This document shows, piece by piece, positions 11,189-16,308 of a stretch of DNA of 53,370 bases. The notes under the pieces were generated by a model, which saw only the letters and a program-made list of their open reading frames with translations, had not been told where the DNA came from and searched no databases. Source of the DNA: Candidatus Peribacteria bacterium (GTDB taxonomy: Bacteria; Patescibacteriota; Gracilibacteria; UBA1369; 2-02-FULL-48-14); the NCBI GenBank assembly GCA_943357175.1, contig CALRGE010000012.1, positions 1-53,370 on the forward strand, written 5' to 3'. Numbering within the stretch: the first letter of the stretch is position 1; each line of letters begins with the position of its first letter. The position numbers were made by a program, and so were the translations under genes.

Positions 11189-11292
11189 GTGATTATGGTT
11201 GTTAAATTATTCACATAAACAGTACAGAACTTAAGAAGTTTCGCAAAAAAAACTTATTGCATTGATACTAATAAGTTGCATTAGAGTTTCAC

Positions 11293-11317
11293 AAAAAAAC
11301 CGTCCAATTTAGGACGG
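11293..11317 (-). terminator. Terminator downstream of 16S rRNA
   Basis: Minus-strand CCGTCC-TAAATT-GGACGG stem followed by TTTTTTT. It closes the rRNA transcription unit about 120 nt after the 16S end; no tRNA, 23S or 5S lies between. Confidence 0.85.
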
Positions 11318-11344
11318 CCTTTAAATTCTTTAGAATTGATAACC

Positions 11345-13007
<1,663 letters not shown>

Positions 13008-13060
13008 AACTGTCAAAGGTCTAAAGAAGAAAACAAACCGCAAAAGCAATTTGCCTACGC

Positions 13061-13088
13061 ATTTTAAAGATTCGCAAAACAAAGTCAA
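13061..13088 (-). promoter_or_regulatory. 16S rRNA promoter
   Basis: Minus-strand TTGACT (13083-13088), 16-nt spacer, TAAAAT (13061-13066), upstream of the processing stem. This is the strongest match between the 16S gene and the 143-residue gene. Confidence 0.65.
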
Positions 13089-13105
13089 GAGAATATTTAA
13101 GGAAT

Positions 13106-13537: not shown

Positions 13538-13607
13538 AAATGAGCAGGAATTCTACCACTAATGTTATTTTCTGCAATACAGACAGGAAGCCCGACAACA
13601 AATTTCA

Positions 13608-13616
13608 TGATATAAT
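13608..13616 (+). promoter_or_regulatory. Extended -10 promoter of clpP
   Basis: TGATATAAT is a full extended -10. A start near 13623 would give a leader of about 19 nt to the ATG at 13642 and exclude the longer open frame from 13540. Confidence 0.5.
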
Positions 13617-13641
13617 AAGAAAAGTAAATTTAATCCACGCT

Positions 13642-14319
13642 ATGAATCAATTCTATCAATTCACAAAAAGCTCTCTACTAAGCGATCAGATCCGATCAAT
13701 CAAAAATAACGGTTCATTTGCTTCAAAAGAAGTTAGTGACATGCTAGTTCCTACTGTACTTGAAAAAACAGTAAACGGTGAACGGGCTTACGATATTTTC
13801 TCAAGACTTTTGAAAGACCGATTAATTATGTTAAGCGACGGAATCGACTCTCACATTTCAAATTTGATTGTAGCTCAACTGCTATTCCTAGAAGCTGAAG
13901 ATCCAAAAAAAGACATTATAATGTATGTGAATTCTCCGGGAGGTCATGTTACTGCCGGTTTGGCAATTTACGACACTATGCAATATGTAAAACCTGACGT
14001 TTCAACAGTTTGTATGGGTATGGCCGCTTCAATGGGAGCAGTTTTGTTGACTGCAGGTGCAGCCGGAAAACGTTTCATTCTACCAAATGCAGAAGTGATG
14101 ATTCACCAACCACTCGGAGGAACTGAAGGTCAGGCGACAGATATCGCAATTCACGCCGAGCACATTCTTAGAACAAAAAAGAATCTCAATACGATTATTG
14201 CCAAGCATTGTAACCAGAAATTGGCCAAAGTTGAGAATGATACCGAACGAGATTACTTTATGAGCGCTGATGAAGCCAAGAAATATGGCATCATCGACAA
14301 AATTATTGATAAAAGATAA
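13642..14319 (+). CDS. clpP: ATP-dependent Clp protease proteolytic subunit
   Basis: Serine protease that forms a tetradecameric chamber fed by ClpX, ClpA or ClpC. The core starts at [30 protein letters not shown] and shows [28 protein letters not shown] (Ser), VMIHQPLGG (His) and [21 protein letters not shown] (Asp region). The frame is open from 13540; 13642 is chosen because of the extended -10 just before it, giving 225 residues with a 33-residue N-terminal extension that may be a propeptide. An ATG at 13741 would give the usual 192-residue length and has weak purine-rich sequence before it. The stop abuts the stop of the convergent gene with no spacer. Confidence 0.93.
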
Positions 14320-14619
14320 TTATAGCTCGATTGTTGGCCTGTCATTTTCAGATAGCGCAGAAGAAACCTGTCCTTTTGTTCCAAAATGAATTTCTGCAAA
14401 CTCTTTTGTAACACCCGATTGTACGGCCTCTTCAACAGAAGTACATTTTGAAAGTATTCGACCAACAGAAGCATGAATGCTGTCCATACCGTTGCCGGCA
14501 GGTTTTCGAGATACATCAAATCTTCCTTTTGGATGTGCCTCTCCTAAACCTGCATTTGAAATCGGCGCCCCAATTCTTGTAACCGAACCATCTGAACATT
14601 GTGATAATTTATCACTCAT
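14320..14619 (-). CDS. Small unknown protein, probably disordered
   Basis: From MSDKLSQC it has 99 residues, rich in Gly, Ser, Lys and Ala, with no membrane segment and no recognised family. An upstream ATG at 14649 adds ten hydrophobic residues and is less likely. It faces clpP tail to tail with zero spacing. In style it resembles the small protein at 48059. Confidence 0.45.
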   Translation of the reverse strand: MSDKLSQCSDGSVTRIGAPISNAGLGEAHPKGRFDVSRKPAGNGMDSIHASVGRILSKCTSVEEAVQSGVTKEFAEIHFGTKGQVSSALSENDRPTIEL

Positions 14620-14649
14620 AAATAAAAAATTTAAAAAATAAAAACTCAT

Positions 14650-14895
14650 CTGTACAAAATGAGAATGCTTTCTTTCTTGTGTCTGTCAGTGAGATTTATT
14701 TTGACGAAAAATAAACTCTGAGAACTCAGACCTTCAAAGTGAAACTTCTCGCGCACGAGAATGTACCATATTTGAGTTTCTGAATTAGCTACCCCACTTA
14801 ACAGAAGCTCGGTGAGCTTCCTATACGTGAAGAAAAAGAGGATTCTAATTTTGTTTTTTCTGCCGTTTTTTCAATGAGCAATTTCTTGTCGAGAG
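14650..14895 (-). ncRNA. Candidate structured RNA or long structured leader
   Basis: An intergenic stretch of about 300 nt without a convincing gene holds four strong hairpins: 14691-14718 (TTTATTTT/AAAATAAA plus GAG/CTC), 14718-14729 (CTGAG-AA-CTCAG), 14746-14761 (TTCTCG/CGAGAA) and 14804-14820 (GAAGCTC/GAGCTTC). A weak minus-strand promoter lies before it (TTGACT 14920-14925, 17 nt, TAAATA). I looked for and did not find tmRNA, RNase P or SRP signatures. Strand, ends and function are inferred. Confidence 0.35.
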
Positions 14896-14971
14896 ATATT
14901 TAATACAAGGAGGTCCGGAAGTCAAGACTCAAAAATAGCAAAATATATTAAATTAATATAAATTGATGCAG

Positions 14972-15532
14972 ATGAAAAAAATATTGTCTGTCATTTTTGG
15001 GTCAATTCTCCTCACAGCCTGCGGTGCAACTAGCATAGGCGGCACGGACGATAATCCAACTTTTTATACTTACGAAACCAGCTCATACCAAATTGATATT
15101 CCGGACACTTGGGAAATAATCACAGATTTTGATTCAAGTTACACAGACGGAATTGAAATCGCCTTCAAAAACAACTTAAAAGACCAGAAGTTCATCGCGA
15201 ATGTGAGCATAATTCATGAAAGAGATGACAAAAGCTTAACAAATGCAGATATTTCTCAAGAAAAACTGAAAAATAATTCAGGAACTCTTATAAATTACAA
15301 CCTTGATTCACAAACTGAAATCGATTTGAAAATTGGTTCAAATGAGACTGCCACTTTTCTGAATAGATTTTCAGGAAAAAATAAAAGTGATGGATATACA
15401 TTCAATTTCATACAAACTTACCTCACAAAAGGCAACGATATATGGATAGTAACAGCCACAAATCTCACAGATGAAGATGAGTTCGTGGTTGAACGAATGG
15501 AAAAAATGCTTACTACTTTTGCCCTAAAATAA
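14972..15532 (+). CDS. Lipoprotein of unknown function
   Basis: A signal peptide MKKILSVIFGSILLTAC has a clear lipobox (LTAC) with Cys at about residue 17, so it would be lipidated and membrane-anchored. The remaining roughly 170 residues begin TSSYQIDIPDTWEI, a pattern like PsbP/MOG1-type secreted beta domains, but the family is not certain. ATG codons at 14966 and 14972 are both possible; the second gives the more typical signal peptide. Its stop shares a base with the start of lgt, the enzyme that would lipidate it. Confidence 0.75.
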   Translation: MKKILSVIFGSILLTACGATSIGGTDDNPTFYTYETSSYQIDIPDTWEIITDFDSSYTDGIEIAFKNNLKDQKFIANVSIIHERDDKSLTNADISQEKLKNNSGTLINYNLDSQTEIDLKIGSNETATFLNRFSGKNKSDGYTFNFIQTYLTKGNDIWIVTATNLTDEDEFVVERMEKMLTTFALK

Positions 15533-16308
15533 TGTTCAATTGGAATATAGATCCTGTTTTATTTAGTATTGGTCCTCTGGAAATCAGATACTACGGCGTG
15601 TTTTTTGCTGCCGGCCTAATGCTGGCATATTTGCTCGCTAGAAAAATGTGCAGAATAAAAAATCTCTCGGTTGATACCTTAGATGATTTATCAGTTTATT
15701 TAATAGTCGGCTTAATTGTTGGTGCGAGATTTGGCCATATTATTTTTTATGAATCTGATTATTACCTTGCCAACCCACAGCAAATTTTAAAGGTTTGGGA
15801 AGGTGGATTAGCAAGTCACGGTGCAGCAATTGGAACTCTTGTGGCTTATGGAATATTTTTACTCCGACACAAAAAAGTTCGTGTATTTGATTACGCAGAT
15901 ATTGTTGCAGTCGCAGCATGTATTCCTATTTCATTTATAAGACTTGGAAATTTCTTCAACAGTGAAATTTACGGTAGAATTACAGATTTACCTTGGGCAG
16001 TAACTTTTTCTAGAATCGACGACTTAAGCAGACATCCATCACAAATTTATGAATTCCTAATGGGGATGCTGATTCTTGCAATAATGTATCCACTTTGGAT
16101 TAGAAAAAACAAAAAAGCTTCAAGCGGCTTCTTCTTTGGCCTATTTTTTATTCTATATTTTGCAGCAAGATTTACAGTAGAATTCTTCAAAGAATATCCG
16201 CTACACGAAAATTTTTTCAACCTCACAACAGGTCAAATTTTGAGCCTTCCATTTTTCCTTTTCGGTTGCATTATTTTCTTCAAATCTACTCATGAAAATA
16301 ATCGATAG
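15532..16308 (+). CDS. lgt: Prolipoprotein diacylglyceryl transferase
   Basis: Membrane enzyme that attaches diacylglycerol to the lipobox Cys of prolipoproteins. It has 258 residues and about seven hydrophobic segments. Motifs are YYGVFFAAGLMLAY, VGARFGHIIFYE, WEGGLASHGA (essential His) and RLGNFFNSEIYG (the Lgt signature). It follows a lipoprotein gene and overlaps the next membrane-protein gene by 17 nt. Confidence 0.96.
   Translation: MFNWNIDPVLFSIGPLEIRYYGVFFAAGLMLAYLLARKMCRIKNLSVDTLDDLSVYLIVGLIVGARFGHIIFYESDYYLANPQQILKVWEGGLASHGAAIGTLVAYGIFLLRHKKVRVFDYADIVAVAACIPISFIRLGNFFNSEIYGRITDLPWAVTFSRIDDLSRHPSQIYEFLMGMLILAIMYPLWIRKNKKASSGFFFGLFFILYFAARFTVEFFKEYPLHENFFNLTTGQILSLPFFLFGCIIFFKSTHENNR

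Follow-up and report, generated by a model that had tools for sequence, protein, structure and literature searches.

The described systems that come closest to the element reported here are the transcription units of ribosomal RNA (rrn) and the boxA-bearing leaders of some protein-coding genes. In the E. coli rrn units a promoter and a 5' boxA are soon followed by the leader strand of a long helix, which closes a looped-out RNA; this leader-trailer helix must exceed 17 bp, and in the Enterobacteriaceae boxC lies 18-19 nt past boxA in 98% of cases (PMC10250234). Upstream of non-rRNA genes boxA exists and works too, as in the leaders of suhB and of a Citrobacter toxin-antitoxin system; the survey of such targets, in the sections used here, dealt with sites up to 50 nt from gene starts, left non-coding RNAs unconsidered and does not mention a large conserved structure (PMC5725501). 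A literature search combining Peregrinibacteria and noncoding RNA found no paper.

By comparing genomes we show a conserved, predicted structured element on the minus strand, with a putative promoter and a terminator-like hairpin, in one family so far. The successive parts appear to be a sigma70-type promoter, a boxA-like motif, the 5' strand of a long-range helix (P1), a core containing a hairpin (P3), the 3' strand of P1, the terminator-like hairpin and a small ORF. The order of promoter, boxA, leader strand and closing helix is that of the E. coli rrn units; unlike them, the element encloses a core of 116-150 nt which is not rRNA, and the terminator-like hairpin and the small ORF come directly after it. 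As in the leaders of suhB and of the toxin-antitoxin system, the boxA precedes a protein-coding gene rather than an rRNA gene, but here an RNA of about 190-250 nt and a terminator-like hairpin separate it from the ORF. With moderate confidence, we read the element as an RNA gene of the minus strand whose layout is that of an rRNA transcription unit in miniature.

A structured element between clpP and lgt

The window (the whole stretch of 53,370 nucleotides that was analysed) corresponds to contig 12 of the 20 into which a 1.23-Mb genome, called G000 below, is assembled. The first-pass annotation had pointed to a gene-free stretch between the clpP and lgt regions, in a genome where most intergenic gaps are under 100 nt, and both statements are borne out by the ORF count, the former also by Pfam. 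When gaps are counted roughly, between non-overlapping ORFs of at least 80 aa and without a gene caller, 72% of the 43 gaps in the window are shorter than 100 nt, while the gap at 14650-14962 has 313 nt (about 350 nt with the likelier start codons at 14619 and 14972). By this rough count no gap lacking a known RNA gene is longer in the window; the only two that exceed it hold the 16S rRNA (1917 nt) and tRNAs (531 nt). The element spans about 14925-14634 (Table 1). Folding of 14620-14980 gives -80.7 kcal/mol on the plus strand (z -3.40) and -79.1 kcal/mol on the minus strand (z -2.82), and on each strand none of 100 shuffled sequences folds as well.

Table 1. Features of the element and of its surroundings, in window coordinates
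Feature	Positions	Strand	Basis or remark
16S rRNA unit	11280-13090	-	apparent promoter, leader-trailer complementarity and terminator
clpP	13540-14319	+	Pfam
Small ORF, 99 aa	14320..14619	-	no Pfam match; start 25 nt past terminator-like hairpin
Terminator-like hairpin CTCAT...ATGAG, then TTTTTATTTTTT	14634..14663	-	hairpin and U-rich tail
P1 3' arm (trailer strand) AAGAAAGAAAGCATTCTCA	14660..14678	-	helix partner, covariation
P4 hairpin AGAGTTTATTTTTCGTCAAAATAAATCTC	14691..14719	-	folding; length of region varies among relatives
P3 hairpin ATTCAGAAACTCAAATATGG ... CTTTGAAGGTCTGAG	14725..14786	-	best conserved part; 20 pairs
P2 local hairpin GGAAGCTCACCGAGCTTC	14804..14821	-	folding; not conserved as such
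P1 5' arm (leader strand) TTAGAATCCTCTTTTTCTTC	14829..14848	-	long-range helix, covariation
boxA-like motif GCTCATTGAAAA	14868..14879	-	16 nt past -10 region
Putative promoter	14896..14925	-	-35 TTGACT 14925-14920, 17-nt spacer, -10 region TAAATAT 14902-14896
Lipoprotein-like gene	14972-15532	+	named by eye; no Pfam match
lgt	15532-16308	+	Pfam

A DNA search with the region in 59 genomes gave no convincing match outside the genome itself: three genomes matched, including its own, and the other two matches, of 23 nt and 26 nt, include one in G021 that was inspected and falls in a coding ORF. The lipoprotein-like gene, which is present in 52 of the 59 genomes, led to the homologous loci. By synteny and a covariance model we found homologues of the element in three of the five other genomes of the family, namely MaH-04nov19-42 (G002) and Ike-50m-54 (G005), both Candidatus Peribacteria, and Candidatus Peregrinibacteria RIFCSPLOWO2_01_FULL_48_20 (G003). 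In these three a gap of about 500-600 nt before the lipoprotein-like gene holds the element and a small ORF. Of 19 listed loci, 12, all from other families, have a minus-strand ORF of 296-329 aa between clpP and the lipoprotein-like gene, at 24-169 nt from the latter; in the one case tested (L022) it is RimK-like.

In each of the six pairwise comparisons, the likeness between the elements surpasses that of all 200 shuffles. A model built from these same four (R1) gives them 190-218 bits, and its matches on the opposite strand, present in three of the four, are far weaker (39, 31 and 22 bits). Across 89 genomes of the order, R1 matched 14 at E <=0.5 and strongly in the four alone; at most 24 candidates per genome were scored in this search, and with this limit weak homologues could go unnoticed. 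Neither copy of the region in G004 has the element, and a RimK-like gene adjoins; R1 gives there 34 weak matches up to E 10, the best (0.22) inside a 649-aa ORF. The 810,063 bases of G001 that were searched are without the element and give 13 weak matches up to E 1, the best (0.03) inside an open 468-codon frame. In a tree of the lipoprotein with two outgroup sequences G000 branches first in the family and G004 lies inside it (support 0.93, then 0.89), which makes a loss in G004 the simpler history; a tree of the M50 protease is poorly resolved. The similar lipoprotein/RimK regions of G004 lie on small contigs (L037 and L008, on G004:C12 and C6) and are perhaps strain variants or a duplication. 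The pattern of P3, looked for in the whole collection with the own genome perhaps excluded, occurs on five contigs, those of G002, G003 and G005 and two of Proteobacteria (L057 and L059). The latter two carry the exact pattern, yet R1 finds nothing in them up to E 1, and their P3 pattern is most likely due to chance.

The first-pass annotation had seen four strong hairpins in a row. Several hairpins are indeed present; the main feature, which it lacked, is the long-range helix P1 around them, and neither the boxA-like motif nor the likeness to an rRNA unit had been part of that annotation. In the common structure of the four sequences, 94.0% of the cells are paired (87.7% in shuffled alignments) and the covariation score is 0.320 (0.188 when shuffled), two values which none of 500 shuffles reaches. 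Seven pairs are changed on both sides against 3.7 in shuffles (11 of 500 do as well), 10 cells against 4.3 (1 of 500), and there are 18 further pair types against 14.9 (27 of 500). Sliding the structure by 1-3 columns lowers the pairing to 42-62%. P1 is paired in 94.4% of its cells, with two pairs changed on both sides; in P3, 93.7% of the cells are paired and five pairs are changed on both sides. With four sequences from draft assemblies, and a structure derived from the same four, this covariation is good but not final evidence for the structure.

The proposed promoter, which the first-pass annotation had suspected on the minus strand, recurs with its 17-nt spacer and TAAATAT in all four genomes, the -35 region being TTGATT in G003. 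The boxA-like motif lies 15-18 nt past the -10 region in the four, and the 5' arm of P1 comes 10-21 nt past the motif. The terminator-like hairpin with its U-rich tail is found in all four as well; its fold energies, from -4.7 (G000) to -8.0 kcal/mol, are weak. Counted by hand, the ATG of the ORF comes 22-29 nt past this hairpin in each case. A generic scanner listed neither the proposed promoter nor the terminator-like hairpin of G000; its totals are not above chance (7 promoters against 8.2 expected, 3 terminators against 1.9), and one of the listed terminators corresponds to a different hairpin of the element, at 14761-14746 on the minus strand.

P1 has 17 pairs in G002, 18 in G005, 18 in G003 and 15, interrupted, in G000. 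The duplex energies are -19.6, -22.9 and -23.9 kcal/mol in the group of the three relatives, where P1 thus exceeds the local fold of a 53-nt stretch (-12.6 to -17.5 kcal/mol). G000 reverses this order: its local fold (-16.7 kcal/mol) beats a P1 of -10.1 kcal/mol, a weak helix which 2 of 500 shuffles equal. In the three relatives, the region of P2 can alternatively pair with the 5' arm of P1.

Comparison with known RNA families

No Rfam family matches the element at gathering level; over 801 nt there are three weak, unrelated matches up to E 10. The absence of tmRNA, RNase P and SRP RNA signatures, already remarked upon, is confirmed: ARAGORN lists only tRNAs in the window, three of them, and finds no tmRNA, and the Rfam models of RNase P RNA and SRP RNA do not match the element. 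Together with the conservation in three relatives of the hairpins, the promoter and the terminator-like hairpin, and with the compensatory changes seen between genera in the four sequences, this upholds the proposal of a candidate new structured RNA. A short stretch resembles 5S rRNA by eye; 5S rRNA was rejected, as it lies elsewhere in five of six genomes and the element gives no match to Rfam 5S. A phage origin was rejected too, with no match in phages or viral contigs.

A 6S-like RNA, which the first-pass annotation had kept as an option, is not supported. Rfam 6S (RF00013) is found in 27 of the 59 genomes at E <=1, 12 of them above the cut-off, and in none of the six genomes of the family. 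This gap in the family could leave room for the element as a divergent 6S RNA, all the more as G000 has no short 6S-like gene at the place described below (by eye); like 6S RNA the element is non-coding with a closing helix. RF00013 does not match it, however, and neither does an order-specific model (R2) built from 20 of the 27 matches, those given as loci. R2 finds 6S RNA in four further genomes; within the family it gives weak matches elsewhere (E 2.2 in G002, 6.3 in G003 and 1.1 in G004) and none in G000, G001 and G005, and nothing convincing appears in G010 and G025. Moreover G002, G003 and G005 carry, by eye, both the element and a separate short 6S-like gene. A divergent 6S RNA is therefore, in our judgement, highly improbable.

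The 6S loci of the order have a recurrent neighbour. As read from the listed starts, an M50-like protease gene (its identity is Pfam-confirmed in the one gene tested) immediately precedes the 6S gene, in the same orientation, at 15 of 24 6S loci; it is nearby in another arrangement in three, and absent in six. At this place the usual 6S RNA of the order has about 150-170 nt. In G001-G005 we noted by eye, after the M50 protease gene, a short RNA-like gene of about 110-130 nt with its own promoter (L092 and L095-L098, in G005, G004, G003, G002 and G001, respectively). It shares 6S-like end motifs, for example GATGT and ACGGCA; it gets no score from the 6S model, so that its 6S identity rests on place and motifs. 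It is possibly a shortened 6S RNA missed both by Rfam and by the order-specific model.

Likeness to rRNA transcription units

The letters of the boxA-like motif resemble those of the boxA of E. coli and B. subtilis. In the relatives the motif reads GCTCTTTGAAAA in two genomes and GCCCTTTGAAAA in the third. We scored it with a matrix of 13 hand-chosen sites from rRNA leaders (ten 16S, three 23S), the elements themselves being left out, as were G010, where the pattern expression has no match, and the 23S leaders of G005 and G004; for the 16S leader of G000, one of two matches was used. Of 11 genomes whose 16S leaders were scanned with that expression, 10 have a boxA-like site there, and G010 shows a related sequence by eye. 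The elements score 8.0 (G000), 12.7 (G002), 14.9 (G005) and 14.6 (G003). Among the 106,716 positions of the window, 14 reach the score of G000 and one reaches each of the three others, the background being the G000 window, one training site included, and not the genomes of the relatives. The core in G000 is CATT, against CTTT or CCTT in the 13 training sites and in the three other elements, and the plain boxA consensus with two mismatches is not in excess in the window, with 10 occurrences against 15 expected. As a sequence, then, boxA is clear in three elements and weaker in G000; what counts for the motif, as we see it, is its near-fixed place in four genomes, and a boxA-like motif in the position it has in rRNA leaders appears well supported. 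A NusB gene is present in all six genomes of the family, which makes NusB-S10 binding and Nus-dependent expression possible.

P1 encloses the core in the manner of a leader-trailer helix, and Rfam finds no 16S, 23S or 5S rRNA inside the element. As it encloses no rRNA we do not file it as an rrn unit, although the rrn leader-trailer unit is the closest kind. The 16S gene lies downstream on the same strand in all four genomes, at about 1.7 kb in G000, 3.1 kb in G003, 3.8 kb in G002 and 3.9 kb in G005; in G000 clpP, on the opposite strand, stands between the two, so that it would be too simple to take the element for the 16S leader. The 16S rRNA of G000 is seemingly a lone unit, with the 23S-5S on another contig (G000:C3); by eye a promoter and a boxA of its own can be made out, along with a 15-mer in the leader that is perfectly complementary to one in the trailer.

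This proximity of the 16S unit, with the rRNA-like promoter and boxA, would fit a degenerate relic of an rRNA leader or trailer left beside that unit by a rearrangement. Beyond the boxA-like motif, however, the element has no significant likeness to the rRNA leaders of its own genome: shuffled sequences score as high in 185, 242, 127 and 237 of 300 cases for the 16S leaders and in 86, 22, 148 and 257 of 300 for the 23S leaders (G000, G002, G005 and G003, in this order). For the 16S trailer of G000, 26 of 300 shuffles are as good. Descent from an rRNA leader is hence without sequence support, and the structure has been kept with compensatory changes between genera, which makes a relic very unlikely. 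A homology of P3 to a hairpin of the 23S leader, good by eye, was rejected as not significant by shuffles. In the 23S leaders of G000, G002, G005 and G003 (L105, L106, L107 and L108, all but L106 in reverse) we noticed by eye that promoter and boxA are separated by a terminator-like hairpin and its U-run; the 5' arm of this hairpin can pair upstream instead, in the manner of an attenuator, and the letters vary while the layout recurs in the four genomes.

The small ORF and a possible role

The codon usage of the small ORF of G000 scores 0.227 per codon, against a median of 0.222 for long ORFs, and 1.4% of 71 noise ORFs are as good. The counterparts at the same place in the relatives have 64, 73 and 73 aa. 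That of G002 does worse than the median noise ORF (77% of 13 such ORFs are as good); for G005 and G003, 30% and 50% of 10 noise ORFs do as well. The training sets of the relatives were small. Coding is clear in G000 only. The four proteins are hardly alike, the best BLAST E between two of them being 0.14, and a search of the 59 genomes returned the ORF itself and a weak match (E 5.8e-4) to a 272-aa ORF of G054. What follows the small ORF differs: a RimK-like gene in G002 and G005, a Mur ligase gene in G003, the convergent clpP in G000.

These observations bear on a stand-alone, trans-acting sRNA ending at the terminator, the ORF being separate or spurious and the boxA-like motif incidental or an aid to elongation. 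The putative promoter of its own, the terminator-like hairpin, the conserved core and the unclear coding signal in three of the four ORFs all suit such an sRNA; the near-constant start of the ORF in the four genomes does not, nor does a motif of nearly constant position which agrees with the rRNA leaders of the same organisms, and we hold this reading to be rather improbable. That the small gene at 14320 has a long regulatory leader, as suggested earlier, is possible, and this idea forms part of our preferred explanation. In its purely cis-acting form, an attenuator or riboswitch-like leader in which P1 and P3 would sense something and decide the fate of the terminator while the boxA-like motif stays idle, it draws on the terminator-like hairpin placed directly before the ORF start in all four genomes, and on folds of G000 in which P1 can extend into the 5' arm of the terminator. 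In G002, G003 and G005, however, P1 and the terminator are adjacent and not clearly exclusive, the competing pairing being seen only in G000, and the ORFs are barely alike, with different genes downstream. Such an attenuator seems to us possible, though on the unlikely side.

Under our preferred reading of a miniature rRNA-like unit, NusB-S10 would bind the boxA on the nascent RNA and stay with the RNA polymerase, and the 5' strand of P1 would be held until the 3' strand emerges, which would let the long-range helix win over local pairing. Once P1 has formed, a double-strand RNase may release the core. The modified polymerase could pass the weak terminator into the small ORF, and expression of the ORF would then depend on the Nus factors left free by rRNA synthesis; boxA-dependent read-through perhaps gates the small ORF in this way. 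A bolder version, which we regard as speculative and unlikely, is that the antitermination machinery of rRNA has been co-opted for a dedicated structured RNA, whose core is released by an RNase III-type enzyme, and that read-through makes the locus a sensor of how fast ribosomes are produced, a fast-evolving small protein being made only when the Nus factors are unoccupied by rRNA synthesis.

Antitermination by boxA is known so far for rRNA and for the leaders of some genes. The layout of the element suggests that in this family the rRNA transcription machinery may serve another RNA too; if this is true, a boxA-headed, helix-closed RNA near the 16S gene would extend the boxA machinery to a new RNA. 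The element also offers a compact test object for the question of whether tethering by boxA promotes the formation of a long-range helix.
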